From assembly GCA_016165875.1 (NCBI GenBank), contig JABBOT010000023.1, positions 1,426,001-1,490,000 of the forward strand: 64,000 bases of DNA. Direction: 5' to 3'. Below are positions 5,601 to 58,200 of the stretch, piece after piece. Below the pieces are notes generated by a model. That model was not told the DNA's origin. It did no database searches and saw nothing but the letters and a program-made list of their open reading frames with translations. Numbering within the stretch: the stretch's first letter is position 1; each line of letters starts with the position of its first letter. This stretch comes from Acanthopleura granulata. Lineage: Eukaryota > Mollusca > Polyplacophora > Chitonida > Chitonidae. Position numbers and translations under genes: made by a program.

Positions 5601-7999
5601 GAAGCTAGGGGACAACCCTGGAGAGATTCAGCCAGGTGGTAAGTTATTTAGCCAGTTCAGGGTTAGATGGAGGAAGAAGTATGTGTTTTCTCAGAAGATT
5701 TAGACTTTCAGTGCGTCAGATATGTTTTTATTTGTTGTGGAATGTTGGACTATTAAAGTTACTGATTTAGTACTAAGTTGTAGTTTAGATTTACCATCAT
5801 TTCTAAATAATCTGTGTCAAAAGGTGTCTTCATCTGATCAGTGTCACAGAATGTTGTGGGGTGTACCAGGACTGTTTTATTTAATTACATTATTTATTTA
5901 TTTTGTATTTATAGCTATTCTTCATTGTATAAATATTTCATATCTGTGCAAAAACTTGTGCCATTACTCAGCTGTGTTAAGCCATAATCATTCATTCCTT
6001 GAGGACTAGCCAGACCATTATACAGCTGTTTGTTAAGTCCCTAAACAAAGTTAACTTCCTTTATTTCTGCTTCCAGCCTATGATGAGATGTGGAGAGAAG
6101 TGGCCTTAAGGAAGCTTTTAACAATAGTGGATGTGCCCATTTTAGATGGCCTTCTGTCTGAAGACAAGACACACAGGAAGTCCAACCGATTTAACATCGT
6201 CATAACCAATGTCATCAATAACCGTATGCGCCCTTCGGCCTCCGTAGGGGGAAATGAGGATCCTTGGGTGAAGTCAGCCTTGGATGTGTTGGAAGGTCTA
6301 CCATTGGGGTTATCTGTCCTTGACAAGGAGCTCCAGGCGCCAGTCACCGTGTCCACGAAACGGCAACTGTTTCGAGCAGTCTGCAAGCACTACTCCCAGG
6401 CAGTAGAGCCTCTTTTACCGGAGAGGTTCATCGACCTGTACCTGGCAATCCTGAACCTGATCCTGCAGGAGAAGGATGACCTGGCTGTCAAGGCTCTCCA
6501 GCTGCTCATGATACTTCTGCCCTGGCAGACTATTGAGGAAGTGGATCGGCTCTTTAAGTTTATGGTGGCAGTCGCTGAAGATGCGTCCTGCTCTCTGGAG
6601 GAACAGGTTAGCTCGTTAGTAAAGCTGTGTTCGCTGCTGTACTTTAAGTATTTTCTTATTATTTATTCTATTTTTTTAAGAATCAAGAGTTTGAATCTTT
6701 CCATTTTGCATGATTAATGTATGTTGACTTTAAAGTTGCATAGTATTGTGTTAAATATGGATAAAATTTTGATATTTATTTTAATTTGGTATTGTTTACA
6801 GGAGGATAACAAGATCATAGTCATCAACAGATTTACTGATGTTCTCATCCAACACACCATGATCTCTCACAATCTTTCGGCTGTTCTTGTTGGCTTTATC
6901 CTGTCCAATGCTGGAACTGTCTTTACGATCCCTAAAGAGATTGAAGATAAAGTTCAATACTACATGGCACAGGTCAGACAAGGAAAGCTGGACCCTGTTA
7001 TTGGTATGTGTCTGCCAACCATAAAAAGTAGGTGGAGTTTGGTGGTATTTGATTGGCCTGATCGTGCAGGACAATGCAACAGCCTTCACAGAATTTCCCA
7101 TTTATTTATCCCGTTTTTTGTCTTCTTATTTTGACTTCTGGGTGATTTGAACACATTTCAAAATGATTTGGTGGCGGAGATATTTGGAGGCAAACTGGAT
7201 AATGTGAAGGGAGTTCCACTGTGCTGCATGAATGAGACCATTGCATGTTCATATGTACTGGGTTGCACTTGCATGGTTTCATTCTAACAAATTCTCCCCA
7301 AATTTCTTTGTCCCTTTGTACCTAACTTTTCTTCTCAAGATAGAAAGTGCAAAGCATGAGATAATGAGTGATAACAAGTAGCTTTGAAAATTAATTTTCT
7401 TTGCCTAATCTTCTAAGATTCAAGAGTCTTTCTAAAGCAGTAAGACTGAGATCAGTCTCTGTTAAAATGATTACTTCATAGTTTACTACACTAACAAAAC
7501 AGTGTGGAAGCTTGTTTATAACTTTAAGATTGTTTAACAACTCTTTTCAGTCTAATCTTAAGTGTAAATAAATCAAGATTATAAGAGCCATAAATCCATT
7601 GTTACAGTTCTTCCAACTTATAAATAGCTGTGTAAAATATTTCCTTAAGAACAGTGGTTTCATTAGTACAGTGTTCTTAAAAGGTTTCTGTGAAGAAACA
7701 TTAGTCTTTTTGTTAAGATCTTCAATATAATTTTCAACACATATGACATGCCTTTTATGTTTATTTTTGAATGATATGGGTAATTTTTCTGTTTTACAGA
7801 GGAGTCGTACTGTGCCAGGTTAACACATGAAGAGTACAGCAAACAAAAAGAGGCGGCCACTAATGAGGGATTGAAAAATGTGATTGATGCAATCCTAGAT
7901 GACACAAAAATACCCCTCAAAGAGAAGAAACTCAGACTGAAACAGTTCCAGAAGTTTCATCCGCAGATTTGTGCTCAGTACTTCCCAGATATCGTTTGA
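2560..7999 (+). CDS. DEPDC7: DEP domain-containing protein 7 (DEPDC7), spliced gene
   Basis: The coding sequence joins 2560-2638, 3932-4033, 4173-4372, 4819-5033, 5400-5638, 6077-6606, 6802-7003 and 7800-7999. All junctions are GT-AG and the phases agree. The product is about 588 aa (554 without exon 2; human is about 511). Residues roughly 62-160 form a DEP domain: QIWNEIVTHL, the basic VKRRRHKMRY, and NCFTGTDAVNVVF, ending VFEDSHSKLYQF. An acidic linker follows (DSDIEVLEDTDDEDTE). The C-terminal helical region, with EVALRKLLTIVDVPILDGLL-like and LKEKKLRLKQFQKFHP motifs, is typical of DEPDC7. Vertebrate DEPDC7 has been linked to CARMA/NF-kB signalling; its role here is unknown. The start is the ATG at 2560, the first that opens into the frame used by the DEP exons. 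Neighbouring ODF3 lies on the same strand 4 kb downstream. Confidence 0.9.
3932..4033 (+). CDS. DEPDC7: DEPDC7 exon 2, possible cassette exon
   Basis: A good acceptor (a pyrimidine-rich stretch ending CACACCAG at 3931) and a GTGAGA donor bound 102 bp. The exon is fully open and enters and leaves in phase 1 (encoding VQKVLSEFANTSRLF ... KVL). Exon 1 could also join exon 3 directly in frame, so this exon could be constitutive or alternative. I recognise no domain in it. Confidence 0.6.
4173..4372 (+). CDS. DEPDC7: DEPDC7 exon 3, first part of the DEP domain
   Basis: The acceptor is TTTCAG and the donor AAAG|GTGGGA. It encodes PFRATQIWNEIV through REKAVK, including the DEP basic helix KRRRHK and the FTGTDAV signature. 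It enters in phase 1 and leaves in phase 0. Confidence 0.92.
4384..4562 (-). mobile_element. tRNA-derived SINE in DEPDC7 intron 3
   Basis: The copy starts with a (TTTA)n tail, then GATTGGTGTTTTACGCCGTA, the GGCGGCCAGCATTTTGGTGG body and CAGACCTTCCCAC. It ends at GAAGCCAGCAT, so the tRNA head is lost. It begins only about 12 bp after the exon 3 donor site. Confidence 0.85.
4819..5033 (+). CDS. DEPDC7: DEPDC7 exon 4, end of DEP domain and acidic linker
   Basis: The acceptor is GTTATCAG and the donor AG|GTAAGC. It encodes LCQTLMDRSVFEPV and VFEDSHSKLYQF, the end of the DEP fold, followed by an Asp/Glu-rich stretch. It enters in phase 0 and leaves in phase 2. Confidence 0.92.
5400..5638 (+). CDS. 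DEPDC7: DEPDC7 exon 5, linker
   Basis: The acceptor is TTTGTAG and the donor GGTG|GTAAGT. It encodes NNQDLEPDMIGDHDD through GEIQPG, a low-conservation linker with a basic patch (KGLKRKS). It enters in phase 2 and leaves in phase 1. Confidence 0.88.
6077..6606 (+). CDS. DEPDC7: DEPDC7 exon 6, large helical region
   Basis: The acceptor is CTTCCAG and the donor CAG|GTTAGC. The 530-bp exon encodes YDEMWREVALRKLLTIVD and helices such as YLAILNLILQEKDDLAVKAL, which match the C-terminal helical half of DEPDC7. It enters in phase 1 and leaves in phase 0. Confidence 0.92.
6802..7003 (+). CDS. DEPDC7: DEPDC7 exon 7
   Basis: The acceptor is TTTACAG and the donor ATTG|GTATGT. It encodes EDNKIIVINRFTDVLI through GKLDPVI, which corresponds to the vertebrate segment with a KIPGTLHK-type motif (here TIPKEIEDK). 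It enters in phase 0 and leaves in phase 1. Confidence 0.92.
7800..7999 (+). CDS. DEPDC7: DEPDC7 exon 8, C terminus and stop
   Basis: The acceptor is TTTTACAG. It encodes ESYCARLTHEEYSKQKEAA, then KEKKLRLKQFQKFHPQICAQ, ending YFPDIV and TGA at 7997-7999. The ending closely parallels the vertebrate DEPDC7 C terminus. Confidence 0.93.
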
Positions 8000-13220: not shown

Positions 13221-13623
13221 ATGACGGCAACACTTCCAAATGGGAAGCCTCGGCTTATTGCGGCCATGTTTAGCAGCCCTGGACCCTGTTATGGTCTGCC
13301 AGGATTGACAGGGGCGCCCAACCATGATCCTCGTAGCGTGCACAATAAAGCTCCGGCCTATTCAATGAGAACAAAATCCGGGAAGTATAAGGATGACTGT
13401 AGCCCTGGTCCAGCATACTACCCAGATCCCAACTACACAAGGGTTGGCAGGAAAGGGGATCCATCTTACTCCCTGTACTCACGGCCGCAAGACTGTGCTG
13501 GCTTCCGCACTCCAGGCCCTGGGGCATATTGTCCTGAAACTGTGGGACCCCAGGCTTACTACTCTCCACCAAAGTATAGCTTTGGTACACGCCACAGGAA
13601 CAGGCAGACTGACAACACCCCAG
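13221..13623 (+). CDS. ODF3: ODF3 coding exon A
   Basis: The exon begins at 13167 after TTTCAG, with 54 nt of 5' UTR. It encodes MTATLPNGKPRLIAAMF, three Pro-Gly repeats and PPKYSFGTRHR. It ends in phase 1 at CCAG|GTAAAC. Confidence 0.93.
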
Positions 13624-16600
13624 GTAAACTATATGCGGCACCAGTAGACCATGCAGAGTGAAAGGTTCTCTCTTGGTAATGTCTGTATGGGTGTTTTGTA
13701 TATAAATGTGCCACCGAACAGGTCAAAAGCTGTCATTTAGAGTTAAAATAACAACATGCATGGCTTCTGATGTAAGTTAAGGTTGATTGATAAAGTGGAC
13801 AGGGGTTATTTAATATTGTGCGGTTATGCTGACTTTAAAATAAATATTTACCAACGGTCATTCTTTTAGAGAGAAACAGAAATGATGTATTTCACATAAC
13901 AAGCTTCAGGTCATGGTTTGATGTCAGAATTTACATACAAATTAATGGTTTATCTATATTCCAGGACCTAATAAGTACACTGTGCCCATTGCTCTGGGCA
14001 GGACACCTGTGGGCACGAAACGCTCGTCTCCTTGTTATTCTTTACGAAGCCGCTCAAATGTCGGTCATTTTGCTGAAGATTTGTCAAAGGTTAATCTATG
14101 TTTAGTGTTGTTTGATACACTGTAGATGTCCATGTACGTGTCGTGCCTTGTTCTGTCATTTCCTCTTCATGACTGATGTCTGGTTTGATCCACGTCAGAG
14201 AATTGCCATATTTATGTTCATGTGAGAAAAGAATTTGATGTTAATGGTGATCACACACAGTATTGTCGGTGACAGTTTGGTAAATCTGACATTTTCACAT
14301 CAGGCCTCAGTCATGAGCAACCCTCTGCTCCGAGAAGGGAATGATAATGGGATCCATCCTATTAGCCCCTTGTTTCTGGTAGATGCTGTAGCTACATCTT
14401 CTTAGCGAATGGACGGATATATGTATGTATCTGCTCTGTGCAAAGCTTTAATTCTCTGATTGTATTACTGTAACTTCATTACAGCACCTAATAACTATAC
14501 TTTGCCGGCGGTCTTTGGGCCTCGTACAATTCAAAGTGACAAAACACAAGCCCCAGTGTATTCACAAAGAGGCCGTCGTGTTCAGGGCAGCTTTTTTGAA
14601 GATTTAAGCAAGGTATCATCAGTGTTCCAAGACCACGGGACACTGTTTGCTGTGGAGTGCTGTGAAATGCTCATATCATGTTTCAGCTGCCACCCTGAGT
14701 TTAGATTTGTCCAGTCAGCCAATCTGAAACTAATCATTCATTTACTAACACTGGTGTGGCTTTCTTCATTGTTTTTGATAATAGTAATGAAAATAATGTG
14801 TTCCGAAAAAACAACACTAGCATTTTGCCTCAGACAGACTCTTACTAATTTTGGTTTGCCTAATACGTGCGAACTAATGTCATACAGCAAACTGCTTTCG
14901 AGATGTTAGACCAAGATCAAATTGCACACTCAAACCATAGTGTTACCTAACACTATGGAATTATCTTATCTAGGAAATATTACCTTTAGCATCCAAACAT
15001 TAATTTGACAATAATGGATAAAATGGACAGTTTTGGCACTAGGTGAATGAGTATTACTATTTAAAGACTTACATCCCTGTTGTTATAATCTCAAGTGCAA
15101 TAGCAGATGTTGTGGTGGAGTTTGGCAAATGTGTATTGAACCACAGTTTAGTCAAATTTAAGCCCTTCACAGATAAGATTGTCATTCAGTTTCCATCCAT
15201 GTGTATAATGTGCATATTTGAAGTAATGTAGAAAATGCACCAGAGTATTTACTTTAGTCATTGATTCAGGATGAGCCCAGGCATGCTGTTTGAATTTAAA
15301 GGCTGAATGTGAATGCACCCATGTGGAGGTTATTTGAAATATCAAGAGGAATAACGGGTGGTAACTTTGGTTGTACATTAATGGGTATAAGTTCTAACAT
15401 AAAATGATTAGACCTACAAGGTTGTATTAATGTGATACTGGACATGTATTCATGTGGGGTGCATGTGAGCAGGCCATAAAAAAAATGCAGCAGTCATCTT
15501 TCTGAACTCCATCATTTCATATGTACAAGACAATTAACCTCTCCTATTGTGTATTTTGTACGTCTCTTTCCTGCATGCTTGTTTGTTTATTTTGCTTGTA
15601 GCACCCAACAACTATTCTTTGCCCCCTATGATTTGTAAAACTGTCCAGAGTGGCAAACGCCAAGCCCCTTGCTATTCCCTCAGTGGACGCAGTATGGTAG
15701 GCGGATTTCACGAGGATTTGGCCAAGGTACAAACAGACATGGCATTATGCCAAGTGGAAAATTGTCAGCTGTGCCCTTTGTCAGTCACAGAGCCCTGAAT
15801 TAGTCATGCAGTACTTAAGACACCTGTATATCAGTAGACTCCTTTTACCTGTAGTATTTCAATAAACATGTACTCACCTGCTTATGTACTTACTCCTTCT
15901 CTAATTAAGTACATGTTTAAAATATTTTTTCAGAGATGTATTTCTTATTGTCTCTTCTTGTCTCTTCCAATACAAATCCTTATTTATATGGCCATAAACA
16001 GCTGTAAATAACTTAAGTATAAAATCACCAACACATTTGATGGCACCAGTGATCTTCATGATCTTTCTGGTGACACATATGTGCCATTATTATCATCTGT
16101 TTGAAAACTTTTGCTGAAATGTAAGGCTTTTCAATATCTGAATTTCACTCTCAGAATTTACCCGAACATTTTATGGTAAATATTGGTTGTGTAACAAGTG
16201 CCTGCATGTATGTAAATGTTCCAAACTGTGAGAGAATTGGCTCCTAGCTGCGTCTTCTCCTTGTTTAGACTCCAGGCCCTGGGACGTACAAAGTGAATGA
16301 TCCCAACACAAACAAGCTGAAGGCCCCATCTTACAGTATGACCAGTCGGAACCAAGCTCCAGGAGATACCACCACAAAGCCTGGCCCCGGGGCCCACTTC
16401 CCGGAGAATGTGAGTGTCACAATAGTTGTGAATGAGAAACAAGCACTAGTTTCTTATTGTTCTACATGGTTCACTTTAAAGTCATGACAACCAAATTTGT
16501 ATCATTTATTTATTTATGTGATGGGTGTTTTATGCCATACTCAAGAATATTTCGTTCACGCTCCAACGGCCAGCATTATGCTGAGACGAAATCGGGCTGA

Positions 16601-17070
16601 GCCCAGGGAAAACCCATCATCATCCACTGGTTGCTGGCCGACCTTCCCACTTACAGCCAAAGGAAACCAGCAGGAGCTGGGCTTGAAGTCACAGCGATTG
16701 CTTTGGTGAGAGGTACCTAGATCAATACGCTGTACTAGTGTGCTAACCTCCTAGGCCATGGAGACCTCGAATTTGTATCATGATGGTTTTTGTACTCTGG
16801 CCTCAGATTTGTGTAGGTATAAAGATTAAGTCAATCAGAAAATGTGTCTGGATATTGACATCCTCAGCCCAAGATACACTGAAATTTGTTCATGTAAATT
16901 TATGCTCTTTTTTGGGGGGTGGGTGGGTGGGTATAAAATGTATACACAAGTATGATGTGGTCATTATGTTGTTTCAGGTGTATATCAACAAGAAACAAGC
17001 ACCTCAGTTCAGCTTTGGAATCCGGCACTCAGAATACCTAGCACCACTAATTGTGGAGTGTCATGATTAG
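13221..17070 (+). CDS. ODF3: ODF3/CIMAP1-type outer dense fibre protein (SHIPPO, PG-rich repeats)
   Basis: The coding sequence joins 13221-13623, one of three alternative exons (13965-14089, 14485-14612 or 15602-15726), 16269-16409 and 16978-17070. Any single choice gives 253 or 254 aa, the length of human ODF3 (254). Pro-Gly-rich repeats are clear: SSPGPCY, CSPGPAYY, TPGPGAYCPE, TPGPGTYK and KPGPGAHFPE, and the C terminus FSFGIRHSEYLAPLIVE matches the family. Vertebrate members associate with axonemal microtubules and sperm tail fibres. The ATG at 13221 lies 54 bp into an exon that starts at 13167. The three middle exons are homologous to one another and each corresponds to the single middle segment of vertebrate ODF3. 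The assignment to the family is firm; which vertebrate paralogue is closest is not. Confidence 0.93.
13965..14089 (+). CDS. ODF3: ODF3 alternative middle exon B1
   Basis: The acceptor is TTCCAG and the donor AAAG|GTTAAT; the exon is 125 bp, phase 1 to phase 0. It encodes GPNKYTVPIALG ... SPCYSLRSRS ... HFAEDLSK. The completed PGPNKY forms a Pro-Gly repeat with the previous exon. Confidence 0.9.
14485..14612 (+). CDS. ODF3: ODF3 alternative middle exon B2
   Basis: The acceptor is CATTACAG and the donor CAAG|GTATCA; the exon is 128 bp, phase 1 to phase 0. It encodes APNNYTLPAVFGPRT ... APVYSQRGRR ... FFEDLSK and is homologous to B1 and B3. Confidence 0.9.
15602..15726 (+). CDS. ODF3: ODF3 alternative middle exon B3
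   Basis: The acceptor is GCTTGTAG and the donor CAAG|GTACAA; the exon is 125 bp, phase 1 to phase 0. It encodes APNNYSLPPMICKTVQ ... APCYSLSGRS ... GGFHEDLAK. Its GGF.EDL ending is the closest of the three to the vertebrate GGFSDDL motif. Confidence 0.9.
16269..16409 (+). CDS. ODF3: ODF3 exon C
   Basis: The acceptor is TTGTTTAG and the donor GAAT|GTGAGT; 47 codons, phase 0 to phase 0. It encodes TPGPGTYKVNDPNTNKLK, APSYSMTSR and KPGPGAHFPEN, matching the distal Pro-Gly repeats of ODF3. Confidence 0.93.
16504..16768 (-). mobile_element. tRNA-derived SINE, near full length
   Basis: Read on the minus strand it has a tRNA-like head with B box GACTTCAAGCCCAGC, the conserved body (CCTTTGGCTGTAAGTGGGAA, GGTCGGCCAGCAACCAG) and an (AAAT)n tail. 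It lies in the last intron of ODF3. Confidence 0.85.
16978..17070 (+). CDS. ODF3: ODF3 last coding exon
   Basis: The acceptor is TTGTTTCAG. It encodes VYINKKQAPQFSFGIRHSEY ... LIVECHD and ends with TAG at 17068-17070. The FSFGI(R/K)HS(E/D)Y motif is diagnostic of ODF3. Confidence 0.93.
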   Translation: MYINKKQAPQFSFGIRHSEYLAPLIVECHD

Positions 17071-25511: not shown

Positions 25512-26991
25512 AATGGGGGCCTACAGTAACCCCCACAGACAGAACTAAATGGAGGCCTACAGTAACCCCCACAGACAGAACTAAATGGGGGCCTACAGTA
25601 ACCCCCACAGACAGGACTAAATGGGGGCCTGCAGTAACCCCCACAGACAGAAGTAAATGGGGGCCTACAGTAACCCCCACAGACAGAACTAAATGGGGGC
25701 CTACAGTAACCCTCACAGACAGGACTAAATGGGGGCCTGCAGTAACCCCCACAGACAGAACTAAATGGGGGCCTGCAGTAACCACCACAGACAGGACTAA
25801 ATGGGGGCCTGCAGTAACCACCACAGACAGGACTAAATGGGGGCCTGCAGTAACCACCACAGACAGAACTAAATGGGGGCCTACAGTAACCACCACAGAC
25901 AGAACTAAATGGGGGCCTGCAGTAACCACCACAGACAGGACTAAATGGGGGCCTGCAGTAACCACCACAGACAGGACTAAATGGGGGCCTGCAGTAACCA
26001 CCACAGACAGGACTAAATGGGGGCCTGCAGTAACCCCCACAGACAGAACTAAATGGGGGCCTACAGTAACCCCCACAGACAGGACTAAATGGGGGCCTGC
26101 AGTAACCCCCACAGACAGAACTAAATGGGGGCCTGCAGTAACCCCCACAGACAGGACTAAATGGGGGCCTACAGTAACCACCACAGACAGAACTAAATGG
26201 GGGCCTGCAGTAACCCCCACAGACAGAACTAAATGGGGGCCTGCAGTAACCACCACAGACAGAACTAAATGGGGGCCTACAGTAACCCCCACAGACAGAA
26301 CTAAATGGGGGCCTGCAGTAACCACCACAGACAGGACTAAATGGGGGCCTACAGTAACCACCACAGACAGGACTAAATGGGGGCCTACAGTAACCCCCAC
26401 AGACAGGACTAAATGGGGGCCTGCAGTAACCCCCACAGACAGGACTAAATGGGGGCCTGCAGTAACCACCACAGACAGGACTAAATGGGGGCCTGCAGTA
26501 ACCACCACAGACAGAACTAAATGGGGGCCTGCAGTAACCCCCACAGACAGAACTAAATGGGGGCCTGCAGTAACCCCCACAGACAGAACTAAATGGGGGC
26601 CTGCAGTAACCCCCACAGACAGAACTAAATGGGGGCCTGCAGTAACCCCCACAGACAGGACTAAATGGGGGCCTGCAGTAACCCCCACAGACAGGACTAA
26701 ATGGGGGCCTACAGTAACCCCCACAGACAGAAGTAAATGGGGGCCTACAGTAACCCCCACAGACAGGACTAAATGGGGGCCTGCAGTAACCACCACAGAC
26801 AGGACTAAATGGGGGCCTACAGTAACCCCCACAGACAGAACTAAATGGGGGCCTACAGTAACCCCCACAGACAGGACTAAATGGGGGCCTACAGTAACCC
26901 CCACAGACAGAACTAAATGGGGGCCTGCAGTAACCCCCACAGACAGAACTAAATGGGGGCCTGCAGTAACCACCACAGACAGGACTAAATG
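25512..26991. repeat. 36-bp minisatellite, about 41 copies
   Basis: The unit is AAATGGGGGCCTGCAGTAAC plus CCCCACAGACAGAACT. Copies vary mainly at a few positions (CCTACAG/CCTGCAG, ACCCCC/ACCACC, AGAACT/AGGACT). Because 36 is a multiple of three, two minus-strand frames stay open throughout (repeating peptides VCGGYCRPP and TAGPHLVLSV). No exon, splice or start context supports translation. It lies 1.2-2.7 kb downstream of the NELL stop. Confidence 0.95.
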
Positions 26992-34200: not shown

Positions 34201-37200
34201 CCAAAAAAAAATAGCATAGATACCTATTTCACAAATTGGACCCATGTAACCATGGCGACAGGAGCAGGTGTCTGGAGCAATGCAATGTCCACCATTTTGA
34301 CAATGTCCAGAGCAAGAGGCTGGAGAAAACAAAAAAAAAATTTTTAACACAAAATAAAAGACAATCATCTTTGACAAACACAGCTACAGACACTTTAACA
34401 AGAAATAAAAACAACAGAAAAAAAATGAAATTTTGTATCTTCTCTGCCATAGCTATTTGGTGTGGATATTTTTATCTTGTGCAAAAACAGAAAAACAAAA
34501 TATTAAGTGTCAAGTGAAATTCCATGGCTAAGCTTTAGAACAGAAAATATAACCCAATTAAATTCAGAGAATTTCTACCCCATGCTAATTATGCAAACTT
34601 TATGCGTGGACCAAGTTGACTTTCAAGCTTATCCGAGAAAGTACAGAATGAATTTGCACACAAAATATTTTCAAAGTCAGAAAATATTTGAAACAGTTAT
34701 TACGCAGAAACCAACAACCAAGGAGAACCTCAAAATTCATCACATAACCAACACTTAAGTACAGGCATAGCTGATCTTCTAAACATGATCCCACGGTCAA
34801 GTGAATCTCAGCATGCATACAAATCAGAATTAGACAATGTTTGGTGCAATTATTGAACAGAAATCAAAGAGTGAAAGGCAGACCCAAATCACTTTCTTTC
34901 AGCAAAGCAAAATAATGATATGAAGCAACTTACGCTGACAGAGTTGTCCCCCTTGGATGGTATAGCCAGCTTGACACTGGCAGACATAGCCTCCGGCCGT
35001 GTTCACACAGACTGCATGCTCGCCGCATGTATGCACTTCACTGGCACATTCATCCACATCTGAGGAACAGAATGTCACATAGCAGGCTTGTCCACGCGCT
35101 TAATCTGCTCTCACCAGACTAAGATGTTCGGAGGAAAACCACTACCTCACAGTTCATGATCATCAGACGAGATAACTCTTGTAACTTCAGTTTCTCTGTC
35201 TTGATACTCCAATATCTTCAATCAATATCCACCTTTCACACATCCTATCCAACCTACAAATATTTAGCCTCAGCAACCTTTCCACATCAAACCCCCCACC
35301 CAACCATTGCACTAATGTCCATCCCTTCTCCAATGTATTCCGAGCTCACCCACAACCAGTAAAGAATGATGTAAACACTCACAAAAGTACACAATCTACA
35401 CAGAGCGCTCTACCTGGCCTCTACACACCCCACCTCTGAATTACAAGCCCCATACAACTCTGGTATGTATCACATAATCTCCACATGTTCCACCTTACCT
35501 CAACACATCCCACCGTTTCACTACAAGCTCCACACAGCCCTCACATGTACCATATAACCTCCACATGTTCCACCTTACCTCAACACATCCCACCCTTTCA
35601 CTACAAGCTCCACACAGCCCTCACATGTACCATATAACCTCCACATGTTCCACCTTACCTCAACACATCCCACCCTTCCACTACAAGCTCCACACAGCCC
35701 TCACATGTACCATATAACCTCCACATGTTCCACCCTGCCTCAACACATCTCACCCTTCCACTACAAGCTCCACACAGCCCTCACATGTCCCACACAATCT
35801 CTACATGTTCCACCCTGCCTCAACACATCCCACCCTTCCACTACAAGCTCCACACAGCCCTCACATGTACCATATAACCTCCACATGTTCCACCTTACCT
35901 CAACACATCCCACCCTTCCACTACAAGCTCCACACAGCCCTCACATGTACCATATAACCTCCACATGTTCCACCCTGCCTCAACACATCCCACCCTTTCA
36001 CTACAAGCTCCACACAGCCCTCACATGTACCATATAACCTCCACATGTTCCACCTTACCTCAACACATCCCATCCTTTCACTACAAGCTCCACACAGCCC
36101 TCACATGTACCATATAACCTCCACATGTTCCACCCTGCCTCAACACATCCCACCCTTCCACTACAAGCTCCACACAGCCCTCATATGTCCCACACAATCT
36201 CTACATGTTCCACCCTGCCTCAACACATCCCACCCTTCCACTACAAGCTCCACACAGCCCTCACATGTCCCACACAATCTCTACATGTTCCACCCTGCCT
36301 CAACACATCCCACCCTTCCACTACAAGCTCCACACAGCCCTCACATGTTCCTCTACATGTTCCACCCTGCCTCAACACATCCCACCCTTCCACTACAAGC
36401 TCCACACAGCCCTCACATGTCCCACACAATCTCTACATGTTCCACCCTGCCTCAACACATCCCACCCTTCCACTACAAGCTCCACACAGCCCTCACATGT
36501 ACCATATAACCTCCACATGTTCCACCTTACCTCAACACATCCCACCCTTCCACTACAAGCTCCACACAGCCCTCACATGTACCATATAACCTCCACATGT
36601 TCCACCTTACCTCAACACATCCCACCCTTTCACTACAAGCTCCACACAGCCCTCACATGTACCATATAACCTCCACATGTTCCACCTTACCTCAACACAT
36701 CCCACCGTTTCACTACAAGCTCCACACAGCCCTCACATGTACCATATAACCTCCACATGTTCCACCTTATCTCAACACATCCCACTCTTCCACTACAAGC
36801 CTCACACATATAACCTCCACATGTTCCATCTTACCTCAACACATCCCACCCTTCCACTACAAGCTCCACACAGCCCTCACATGTCCCACACAATCTCTAC
36901 ATGTTCCACCCTGCCTCAACACATCCCACCCTTCCACTACAAGCTCCACACAGCCCTCACATGTCCCACACAATCTCTACATGTTCCACCCTGCCTCAAC
37001 ACATCCCATCCTTCCACTACAAGCTCCACACAGCCCTCACATGTCCCACACAATCTCTACATGTTCCACCCTGCCTCAACACATCCCACCCTTTCACTAC
37101 AAGCTCCACACAGCCCTCACATGTCCCACACAATCTCTACATGTTCCACCCTGCCTCAACACATCCCACCCTTCCACTACAAGCTCCACACAGCCCTCAC

Positions 37201-40200
37201 ATGTCCCACATAATCTCTACATGTTCCACCCTGCCTCAACACATCCCACCCTTCCACTACAAGCTCCACACAGCCCTCACATGTACCATATAACCTCCAC
37301 ATGTTCCACCTTACCTCAACACATCCCACCCTTTCACTACAAGCTCCACACAGCCCTCACATGTACCATATAACCTCCACATGTTCCACCTTACCTCAAC
37401 ACATCCCACCCTTTCACTACAAGCTCCACACAGCCCTCACATGTACCATATAACCTCCACATGTTCCACCTTACCTCAACACATCCCACCCTTCCACTAC
37501 AAGCTCCACACAGCCCTCACATGTACCATATAACCTTCACATGTTCCACCCTGCCTCAACACATCCCACCCTTCCACTACAAGCTCCACACAGCCCTCAC
37601 ATGTACCATATAACCTCCACATGTTCCACCCTGCCTCAACACATCCCACCCTTCCACTACAAGCTCCACACAGCCCTCACATGTACCATATAACCTCCAC
37701 ATGTTCCACCTTACCTCAACACATCCCACCCTTTCACTACAAGCTCCACACAGCCCTCACATGTACCATATAACCTCCACATGTTCCACCTTACCTCAAC
37801 ACATCCCACCCTTTCACTACAAGCTCACATGTACCATATAACACATGTTCCACCCTGCCTCAACACATCCCACCCTTCCACTACAAGCTCCACACAGCCC
37901 TCACATGTACCATATAACCTCCACATGTTCCACCCTGCCTCAACACATCCCACCCTTTCACTACAAGCTCCACACAGCCCTCACATGTACCATATAACCT
38001 CCACATGTTCCACCTTACCTCAGCTCCACACAGCCCTCACATGTACCATATAACCTCCACATGTTCCACCTTACCTCAACACATCCCACCCTTTCACTAC
38101 AAGCTCCACACAGCCCTCACATGTACCACACAATCTCTACATGTTCCACCCTGCCTCAACACATCTCACCCTTCCACTACAAGCTCCACACAGCCCTCAC
38201 ATGTCCCACACAATCTCTACATGTTCCACCCTGCCTCAACACATCCCACCCTTCCACTACAAGCTCCACACACCCTCACATGTACCACACAATCTCTACA
38301 TGTTCCACCTTACCTCAACACATCCCACCCTTTCACTACAAGCTCCACACAGCCCTCACATGTCCCACACAATCGCCACATCTTCCACCCTGCCTTTACA
38401 GACCCATCCACTCCAAGCCAACCACAACTCTTGACGTCCCGCACAATCTCTACATGCTCTACCCTGCCTCCACACACCCCACCCATCCACTACAAGCCCC
38501 ACACAACCCTGACATATTCCATCCAATCTCTACATGCTCTACCCTGCCTCCACACACCCCACCCATCCACTACAAGCCCCACACAACCCTGACATGCCCC
38601 ATACAATCTCTACATGCTCTACCCTGCCTCCACACACCCCACCAAACCACTACAAGCTCCACACAACCCTGACATGTCCCATACAATCTCTACATGCTCT
38701 ACCCTGCCTCCACACACCCCACCAAACCACTACAAGCCCCACACAACCCTGACATGTTCCATCCAATCTCCAAATAATCCATCCTATCTGTAAACAGCCA
38801 CCCATCCACTACAAGCTCCACACAACCCTGATATGTTCCATCCAATCTCTACATGCTCTACCCTGCCTCCACACACCCCACCAAACCACTACAAGCCCCA
38901 CACAACCCTGACATGTCCCATACAATCTCTACATGCTCTACCCTGCCTCCACACACCCCACCAAACCACTACAAGCTCCACACAACCCTCACATGTTCCA
39001 TCCAATCTCTACATGCTCTACCCTGCCTCCACACACCCCACCCATCCACTACAAGCCCCACACAACCCTGACATGTCCCATACAATCTCTACATGCTCTA
39101 CCCTGCCTCCACACACCCCACCAAACCACTACAAGCCCCACAAAACCCTGACATGCCCCATACAATCTCTACATGCTCTACCCTGCCTCCACACACCCCA
39201 CCAATCCACTACAAGCCCCACAAAACCTTCACATGCTTCACCCTGCCTCTACAAATCCCAGTCATCCACTACAAACCCCACACAACCCTGACATGTTCCA
39301 CACACTCCACCCATCCAATACAAGCCCCACACATCCTACACTTGTTCCACCTAGCGTCTGTAAATCCCACCCATCCACTACAAGCCCCACAAAACCCCGA
39401 TATGTTCCACGCTACTGCAACACTATAAGCCCCACACACTCCACCTGATCCCTGAAGACTGACCTCCAACTCAAAAGCAAGCATGCACACACTCCATTTT
39501 GCTTTCATTCTCTGCCTCACCAATCCTCTCATCACTAAACTTTCAGTTTGTTATCCACACACCACATTCGACTGCAGAGATTTTTTTTTTTACGAACCAG
39601 CTTTTGTAAGACTTTACAAGAGAGTTAAGGATGTAAAAACACCAGCAGCTAAATGCAACATATTTCACAGATATTTCAGTCATCCAATAACCTTGAAGTT
39701 GAGAGGACGATGCCATAAAGCCAGATCTGACTAAGGTCAAAAAATGTGATTCTATCACTTAGGTTTAGACAAACATGTTAAAATTTCAGCCCCCGGGTAT
39801 TGTGTATTACACAGAGGCTTTAAGTTTTAATTTGAAGCCAAAAACGGTTTCGTGGAATCAGTCACAGTTTCCTGTGCCTTTGAGCTCCCTGAATGTCATC
39901 AGTTTATGTCTGCACTGGGAATTTTGAAATCTACCCAACAAGTTTCAACCAGCTTAGGACTAGGTTTATCACAGGAAACGATGGGTAAAAGCAGTTCTTC
40001 AGAATCTTATTAATTTCACTAAAACACTTCCGATTAATAATTTGCCCCCTAATAAGTCTGGGCACTGTTTTAGTACAGTACATATATATGCTGCACAAAG
40101 GCTTTTCATAGTTCTCCACAGTGAAATGTGCAGCAGCTTCTGAATGAATCCTGATGTCAATCAGTGATAAAACCCCAGTTGATGTCAATCAGTGATAAAA

Positions 40201-55200: not shown

Positions 55201-58200
55201 TACTGTAACAATCACCTTAATATGGATTGTTATACCCCTAGACTATTATCTCACTGTTTCTGTCTGCGTAATTTACAATACTTAATATGCAACCAAGGCA
55301 CCAATGAGGGAACATAACCCATGTGTTTTACAGAGTATACCAAAATCAAGCTCAATGCCCATATTTTTTAGATACCACCCTTAATGTTCAAATTAAGGTT
55401 GCTTTAACTGTTGCTGGACACCTATACCAACACTCAGGTAATGACATTAGCTCTCACTGCACTTCAAATTTGTACAAACCAGCTAAAATTAAACAGAAGT
55501 TTCAACACCAAAGTAAAACTTCATGGCACTTATTTTGTCATAACTACTTTGGGTGATAGCTTAAGACATTCACTAAAGTTTTGATTAAAGATTTTGGTTA
55601 TCTTTTCACTGTATGAGGCTTTCACATTTTCATTTTCATTCACCTCAAGTTTGAGAAATGCTACGAAGTGAACCCTAACACTGGGCTATGCTCATTTCAT
55701 ACTGTGATCTCTAACTCAAATTTCTGAGTGACCGTTACATATCAAGCGGGTTGACTGCATGGCAAGTGTTATTCTACTGCTGTGTCAGTCATTTCACCAG
55801 TGAAGTGGCTTACCAGTATCAGCCACCCATAACGTATGTGATTGACAGCAACAGACACTCTTGAAGGACTAATTACAACCAAATTACCTCAACTTACACA
55901 AAATGCACTCTGGGAACTATTTCATGTTGAGCAAAGAGAACCAATGAATGAAAATACTTGGTAGGACATGCAACATGTCAAGACCCAGGAATTCCATACA
56001 AACTTCCGTTATGAGAGGTGCGCATTCCATCGAATGAGCGGCTCTCATAACATAAGCATAAACACAAATTCGTTCTATTCTGCTGGTTTAAATAAAGATC
56101 TTCCACATTATTTCAATCCAACATTCCCCAGTATCAATGCCACATCTCATCATCTCAAATAATTTTCACTGAAGTGAACAGACCACTTTTAAATGCGGTA
56201 CATGTATGCAGCATCTGAAGGCCATTTTGTACAGATCCTGATATGGTTATCATGATTTTGTTTTCAATTGTTTTCACAGTGAGTATAGGGTAACAGTATT
56301 ATCCAATCTGAGTGAATATAGAGATCAAATTCTTCTTTCACCGTGAACCAACAACACACATACATGTCAACACCTTGAATATGAGTAATAAGTGAGATTC
56401 AACAAAAATGGGAAACTCCCTGGCCGAGAAAGTGAGTGTGCCATGCTTATGATTAGCATAATCACCCAGGTGCCTCTCACCAATGCGATGGCTGTGAGTT
56501 CAAGCCCATCTCACACTGGCTTCCTCTCCCGTCATACGTGGGAAGGTCCACCAGCAACCTGCGAATGTGCGTGGGTTTCTCCGGGGCCCTGTCAAATTTC
56601 CACCTACCATAATGCTGGTTGCCGTCGTATAAGTGAGATATTCTTCAGGACAGCACAAAACAACAATCAAATAAATAAATCAATCAACAAAAATGAAACC
56701 ATATTCAAAATTTCACGCTGAAATCTCAAACCGTAAGTCACTTGCTGATAAGGTATATATAGCATATGGGTACACTCATGCAAAGAGAATGGAGAAATGG
56801 GTGAGACCTTTACTCACCACACTCACAGAGAGTATGTTTATCCACAGAACCACAATCTTTACTCACCACACTCACAGAGAGCATGCTTATCCACAGAACC
56901 ACAATCTTTACTCACCACACTCACAGAGAGCATGCTTATCCACAGAACCACAATCTTTACTCACCACATTCACAGAGAGCATGCTTATCCACAGAACCAC
57001 AATCTTTACTCACCACATTCACAGAGAGCACGCTTATCCACAGAACCACAATCTTTACTAACCATACAATCATTGAGAGCACACTCATCCACAGAACCGC
57101 ATCTCTTTACTCACCACATTCACAGAGGGCATGCTTATCCACAGAACCACAATCTTTACTCACCATACAATCATAGAGAGTATGTTTATCCACAGAACCA
57201 CAATCTTTACTCACCATACAATCACAGAAAGTACGTTTATCCACAGAACCACAATCATTACTCACCATACAATCATAGAGAGTACGTTTATCCACAGAAC
57301 CACAATCTTTACTCACCATACAATCACAGAGAGTACACTGATCCAAACTCCACACTTCTCCTTCTTTATGGACTGTCATATTATCATAACAATTTTTTTG
57401 GCATTCACATTTTTCCAAATCTGTCAGTCTCTCTTCTGCCTGCAGAAGCTGAAAAGAAAATTTAAAGAATGAGGTAAGGGAAAGTATTCTGTATATGTAT
57501 AACAGTATACAGTTTATGACTGCAGGTAGTTGTACTTCACCATAGCCCAAATAGCAAGGCAACAATTGGTTTCACTCCTACCTGTAGGTGTGAGGAAGTA
57601 CTCCAGAACTTCGCACAGTCCAACAGCTCCATAATAATAATAATTATCTCCTAATTCATTAGAACTTTCATTCATTACGATACATCTACACTGTAAATTT
57701 GACATACTTGCTCTCTTCAGATGCCAGCCAGGGTATCACAGTAGTTCGATCACTATCAGTTAAAGTCTTGCTCTCATCACAGCTGATTAACAGTTGCAAA
57801 ATTAGGTTCAGCGTTAAACTGAAGCTCAACAAAAGGGTTGTAAAGCACTTTGCAAGCGGTTTGCACCAACCATATGAAATCCTTACTAGTATAATAGTAA
57901 TGAAGTAATCCAAGAAATGGTGCTTAAATCACAATGAATGATTTGATTGACAGGTGACAAGTATAACTTGAATGCTCTTGGATGCGTAGATTTGTCAGAT
58001 AACTAATAAACTTTCTCACATAAAACCATCTTCAAATGTGAGGGTGAGCTAAATGTGAGGGTGAGCTAAATGTGAGGGTGAGCTAAATGTGTATATACAT
58101 ATTGTTAGTGGAAGGCAAATGAACTCCATTATATGTCAGGTGAGTCTGGCCATCTTTATTAGCCCTACATACATGTGTGGTTTATGTCTTTATGTCACCA

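Follow-up and report, generated by a model that had tools for sequence, protein, structure and literature searches.

A putative frame-locked cluster of three mutually exclusive exons in the CIMAP1 (ODF3) gene of the chiton Acanthopleura granulata

The window, a 64-kb stretch of Acanthopleura granulata DNA, carries an intact chiton CIMAP1 (ODF3/SHIPPO1) gene, in which three tandem-duplicated exons (B1, B2 and B3) lie between a first coding exon, A, and two downstream exons, C and D. The best reading of this arrangement, to which we assign a probability of about 0.85, is that the three exons are mutually exclusive and are kept so by a lock on the reading frame. The spliceosome would join exon A to B1, B2 or B3, and then the chosen exon to C. 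A transcript containing zero, two or three copies would shift frame and meet a stop more than 50 nt upstream of the last junction. The choice of exon would thereby swap one microtubule-contact unit of a filamentous protein located near the outer doublet surface.

Results

Organization of the gene and its product

All exons of the gene lie on the plus strand. Exon A (13221..13623), the first coding exon, opens with an ATG start, ends in phase 1 at a CAG/gtaaac donor and aligns to PDB ODF3 chains. It is followed by two divergent variants of the duplicated exon, B1 (13965..14089, 125 nt), with a TPGPNKY motif, and B2 (14485..14612, 128 nt), with one extra residue and a TPAPNNY motif, and then by the canonical variant B3 (15602..15726, 125 nt), also with TPAPNNY. 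Introns of 395 nt (B1-B2, 14090..14484) and 989 nt (B2-B3, 14613..15601) separate the three, and a 70-nt AG-free stretch precedes B3. The common downstream exon C (16269..16409) has an AAT/gtgagt donor, and exon D (16978..17070), the last coding exon, ends with a TAG stop; its translation aligns with the C-terminal end of ODF3 chains in the PDB. GT-AG is found at every exon border from A through D.

The coordinates, lengths, phases and splice sites of the three B exons given in a preliminary description of this DNA all proved correct, and the end of exon C at 16409 and the start of exon D at 16978, absent from that description, were fixed in the present analysis. Its observation that B1, B2 and B3 all start in phase 1 and end in phase 0, and that none is a multiple of three, was likewise confirmed, each being 2 mod 3 long. 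Tandem, homologous, internal, similar in length and identical in phase, these exons have the layout of a mutually exclusive exon cluster.

Searched against the PDB, the B1 isoform matched ODF3/CIMAP1 chains along almost all of its length (six distinct sequences, E 1.6e-60 to 4.9e-34), and it matched Pfam SHIPPO repeats (PF07004) at E 6.7e-25. The B segments on their own are marginal by this standard: B1 (21.4) and B3 (20.6) barely pass the cut-off of 20 for the SHIPPO repeat, and the B2 segment alone did not match this Pfam repeat even with the threshold relaxed to E 1. Six PG-type motifs were located at residues 19, 61, 97, 133, 177 and 213 of the B1 and B3 isoforms; in the B2 isoform, the fifth and sixth are displaced by +1. 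Each B exon supplies the fourth of the six plus its spacer. Because each B exon amounts to one PG motif and its spacer, the choice of exon should exchange one microtubule-contact unit.

Available passages of work on Tetrahymena describe the PGPGxY motif as binding microtubules and ~40 aa as an 8-nm spacer (PMC10105768). The exchange would accordingly be expected to concern roughly one 8-nm tubulin-dimer contact. In the accessible portions of other papers, CIMAPs are placed close to the external doublet surface with a cilium-specific distribution (PMC11779644), ODF3 is among the proteins abundant in Ciona sperm flagella and occurs in very small amount in branchial cilia (PMC4427456), and shippo1 is among the testis genes of a scallop, no statement on its splicing being found in the accessible text (PMC3774672). 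ODF3A is mentioned once in the available part of PMC10663601.

Several repeats and open frames were observed elsewhere in the window. A large tandem array at 35465-39235 has an 80-bp unit with higher-order periods of 160/240 bp, and several open frames of 150-200 aa across it are probably repeat artefacts. A 36-bp minisatellite of ~41 copies at 25512-26991 leaves the minus strand open for 525 aa (SVCGGYCRPPF repeats), a frame that is probably not a gene. At 57107-57565, an open frame on the minus strand consists of repeated cysteine-bearing CMVSKDCGSVDK units and overlaps a 49-bp minisatellite (56808-57333). A 209-aa open frame at 6088-6717 is possibly an exon of a DEP-domain protein. Neither of these last two frames had a Pfam match at E 0.001.

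Homology and constraint among the B exons

The proposal that the three B exons encode homologous segments was borne out by alignment over their whole length. Across 42-43 aa, 21 residues are identical between B1 and B2, 21 between B1 and B3, and 24 between B2 and B3 (50-57% amino-acid identity). These alignments score 88-114, against 32-43 for B segments aligned with other parts of the protein, and stand ~12 to 16 SD above shuffles; none of 2000 shuffles per pair reached them.

The way in which the copies differ resembles the outcome of selection on the protein. In a neutral simulation that applied the same number of random base changes as observed between copies, the observed amino-acid identity was never attained (0/5000 runs for each of the three pairs), and neutral copies at the same divergence had a stop codon in 78-84% of simulations. 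NG86 dN/dS was ~0.23 for B1-B2 and ~0.19 for B2-B3 with dS near saturation, and dS was saturated for B1-B3. Nine positions are occupied by one residue in at least 95% of 136 listed relatives (the 138 proteins described below minus P0001 and P0002), and all nine are retained in B1, B2 and B3.

A segment profile built from these 136 relatives, which it therefore favours, gave 100.4 bits for B3, 73.6 for B2 and 69.8 for B1. The 136 listed relatives themselves ranged from 69.9 to 106.0 on the same profile (median 92.8, 5th percentile 77.4), so that B1 falls under the lowest of them and B2 under their 5th percentile. Judged in this way, B3 is the ordinary segment, from which B1 and B2 have diverged. 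In B2 and B3, PGP is replaced by PAP; since this is so in most relatives too, with A at that site in 79% of the 136 listed, the loss of the glycine is not special to these two exons. A tree of the short segments had weak support at its deeper nodes (0.54 for the node uniting B1 with B2).

Recent duplication of whole exon-plus-intron units was considered and rejected: the best of six flank comparisons had 2/200 shuffles as high, and no clear intron similarity was found. Extra B-like exons were also sought, in a six-frame scan (score at least 32) of the four cluster introns, intron C-D and ~2 kb of each flank, which gave three hits. Those scoring 33 and 36 were interrupted by stops. The third, a 14-residue match scoring 40 in intron C-D, falls within a presumed dispersed repeat (~16505-16765, possibly of a SINE-like mollusc type) and was not counted as an exon, though its score equals that of B1 against exon C.

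A reading-frame lock and its possible leak

When all eight combinations of B exons were joined, only the three single-B joins stayed open, giving 253 (B1), 254 (B2) and 253 (B3) aa. Without any B exon, the product stopped prematurely at 144 aa, 109 nt upstream of the last junction; the corresponding values were 216 aa and 146 nt for B1+B2, 185 aa and 236 nt for B1+B3, 186 aa and 236 nt for B2+B3, and 216 aa and 271 nt for all three. The stops themselves lie where the preliminary description had placed them: a TGA ten codons into exon C when all B exons are skipped, a TGA nine codons into B3 when B1 or B2 is joined to it, and a TAA near the end of B2 when B1 is joined to B2.

By the 50-nt rule, nonsense-mediated decay is triggered when a stop lies further than this upstream of the last junction. 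At the normal borders, zero, two or three copies each leave a stop beyond that distance, so the wrong products should be removed by decay. With a length of 2 mod 3 for every B exon, the frame is closed by one copy or by four, but not by zero, two or three; three exons is therefore the largest cluster that a pure frame lock can police. According to the available part of PMC6071210, decay can contribute to exon exclusion, but not in clusters of more than three exons, a limit at which the chiton cluster sits.

The claim that exactly one copy is needed for the 253-254 aa protein holds at the normal borders, where five of the eight joins are truncated, but does not extend to every alternative one. 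Among 132 donor-acceptor pairs made of GT/AG dinucleotides no more than 60 nt from the B borders, 29 preserve the complete reading frame although two B exons are present. Joining the usual donor of B1 or B2 to an AG inside B3 (15647..15649, plus strand, first exonic base 15649) would give in-frame partial double inclusion, and some unannotated donors joined to normal acceptors also keep the two-B frame open. This internal AG looks weak by eye because a purine-rich stretch precedes it; it could let the lock leak, in which case exclusion by frame would be imperfect.

Relatives with a single B-type segment

Three protein searches gave 689, 645 and 710 matches, and the best 120 of each comprised 138 distinct proteins. 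Exactly one match to the segment profile was present in each of these 138 listed proteins, and one such segment was also found in three of the six matched PDB sequences, those with alignments examined, which we take to be from sea urchin and mouse. The preliminary description likewise gives a single segment of this kind for vertebrate ODF3. Among the matches listed, the segment was closest to B3 in 133 of 138, to B2 in four and to B1 in one.

P0001, the best match among these proteins, is a predicted protein of Liolophura sinensis labelled "isoform X3". It carries a B1-type segment alone, identical to B1 at 40/42 residues; the rest of the protein is identical at 208/211. L. sinensis is placed in Chitonidae, Acanthopleurinae. 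The database was clustered at 90%, and P0001 stands for three sequences on one contig. Because the B2 and B3 isoforms of the window are 91% identical to P0001, which fits such a cluster, the two other sequences probably represent isoforms B2 and B3 of L. sinensis.

In P0002, a B2-type segment alone is joined directly to A- and C-type sequence. This segment is identical to B2 at 31/43 residues, compared with 20/42 for B1 and 21/42 for B3. In a tree of the backbone (the protein minus its segment), P0002 joins two chiton proteins with support of 0.996, and in the segment tree it groups with B2 (0.94); we infer that it is a chiton-like protein. Its source contigs measure up to 3192 nt and its reading frame is contiguous, which on so short a contig suggests that it derives from spliced RNA. 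Among the matches listed, P0002 had no partner of B1 or B3 type.

A few other proteins lean towards B2. P0127 is closest to it (25/43 identical, score 134 versus 110 for B3), and P0076 and P0129 are so by a few score points only. P0016 groups with B2 and P0002 in the segment tree (0.81); it is not part of the ten-protein clade that contains the chitons in the backbone tree, and its identity to P0002 is 57%.

These relatives support real use of B1-type and B2-type segments. Among the matches listed, a B3-type segment alone occurs only as the usual segment in other proteins, and B3 would be expected to be used in chitons as well. The proposal that three mutually exclusive exons let one protein come in three versions is thus supported by P0001 with B1 alone, by P0002 with a B2-type segment alone, and by the closeness of B3 to 133 of the 138 listed segments.

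Pairs of CIMAP1-like proteins from the same species and on same-sized contigs were also observed, namely P0047/P0088 (Tegillarca), P0085/P0092 (Patella) and P0039/P0135 (Watersipora), which points to linked duplicates of the gene in other lophotrochozoans in place of the chiton's duplicated exons.

How one exon may be chosen

Pairing between introns of the docking/selector kind, which the preliminary description had named as a thing to look for, gave no signal above shuffles. In whole-intron duplexes set against dinucleotide shuffles, no pair was clearly stronger (at best 4/40 shuffles as strong), and no shared docking site pairing with all three other introns rose above shuffles (at best 20/100 as high). 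These comparisons covered whole-intron duplexes and ungapped sites in one genome, which allows no covariation test, so short or gapped pairings could be missed.

Exclusion limited by spacing is argued against by the B-B introns, which at 395 and 989 nt are too long for it. The B donors (gttaat, gtatca, gtacaa), compared by eye with the U12 consensus, showed no sign of a mixed spliceosome and hence of U2/U12 incompatibility. None of 4227 known RNA families reached threshold within the 64-kb window. By elimination, the exon would be chosen by regulated action of trans factors, the reading frame serving as enforcer.

Alternative explanations

It might be supposed that one or two of the B exons are no longer in use, being decaying duplicates or poison exons that lower expression. 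The profile scores of B1, below all 136 listed relatives, and of B2, below their 5th percentile, would fit such decay, and double inclusion at normal borders always gives the premature stop expected of a poison exon. However, all three exons have open frames and intact splice sites where neutral copies carried a stop in 78-84% of simulations, and the nine near-invariant positions of the 136 listed relatives are present in every one of them. The near-identity of B1 (40/42) within an annotated Liolophura isoform and the B2-type segment standing alone in P0002 point the same way, and we regard this account as quite unlikely. Inclusion of the B exons together, as consecutive SHIPPO repeats of a longer protein, is very improbable. 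Each does encode a PG-motif unit of a repeat protein, but the passage from phase 1 to phase 0 puts every canonical multi-B join out of frame, the exons resemble each other (88-114) more than they resemble other protein parts (32-43), and there is one segment-profile match per protein in the 138 listed relatives.

A further alternative accepts exclusion and attributes it to competing intron pairings (docking/selector), with the frame as a backstop only. The available part of PMC6071210 describes clusters of this kind as being controlled by competing RNA structures. In the one chiton genome examined, whole-intron duplexes and ungapped shared sites were not clearly above shuffles (best 4/40; shared site best 20/100) and the introns flanking the B exons are without clear similarity to one another; we consider this alternative unlikely. 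The reading that we prefer remains a frame-locked set of three mutually exclusive exons that arose by tandem duplication.

Discussion

Mutually exclusive exons are a known phenomenon; a case in ODF3/CIMAP1 was not found described in the available parts of the literature on ODF3/CIMAP1, on mollusc exon duplication and on axonemes or sperm flagella. The earlier statement that none was known for ODF3 stands with respect to that literature, but the automated Liolophura annotation already predicts isoforms ("isoform X3").

Among known systems, the IIIb/IIIc exons of FGFR2, as cited in available passages of PMC6071210, are comparable in that they are alternative exons whose double inclusion breaks the frame, with decay expected. 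FGFR2 is a receptor, whereas CIMAP1 is an axonemal microtubule-associated filament, and the chiton gene has three exons, the maximum for a frame lock, with decay as a prediction. Dscam-type clusters likewise choose one exon from a tandem array, but do so by docking/selector pairing, whereas no pairing signal above shuffles was found in the chiton CIMAP1 introns. Human tandem-duplicated exon substitutions resemble the chiton case in producing isoforms identical save for one homologous segment; the events in the accessible text of PMC9741552 are mainly human, and no ODF3/CIMAP1 was found in that text.

A structural parallel is offered by CIMAP1A/B/C (ODF3, ODF3B, ODF3L1) in PDB 8otz and two ODF3 sequences in PDB 8snb, which have the same architecture as chiton CIMAP1. 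In these entries, which we take to represent bovine sperm and sea urchin sperm respectively, several forms of a single filament protein are present together in one solved doublet. Their CIMAP1 variety presumably comes from separate genes, whereas that of the chiton would come from exon choice in one gene.

The B1, B2 and B3 forms may differ in function or in the tissue where they occur. Tentatively, and with more doubt than confidence, we suggest that splicing of a single CIMAP1 gene gives chitons the variety which other animals obtain from having several such genes. The three forms would then be specific to a type of cilium or to a protofilament cleft (e.g., sperm tail versus gill cilia), each altering one 8-nm tubulin contact with length almost unchanged, and the cluster would stand at maximum frame-lock size.

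A structural component of motile cilia and sperm tails, where it lies along the microtubules, CIMAP1 bears on the question of how one animal comes to build its cilia in different ways. The cluster is also a neat example of a frame lock that has reached its largest possible size: any number of copies from zero to three other than one fails, and adding a fourth exon would undo it. If the mutually exclusive reading is true, a single gene could supply one structural part in three slightly differing versions, and the swap of one presumed tubulin-contact unit would constitute a clean natural experiment with three forms of almost equal length.
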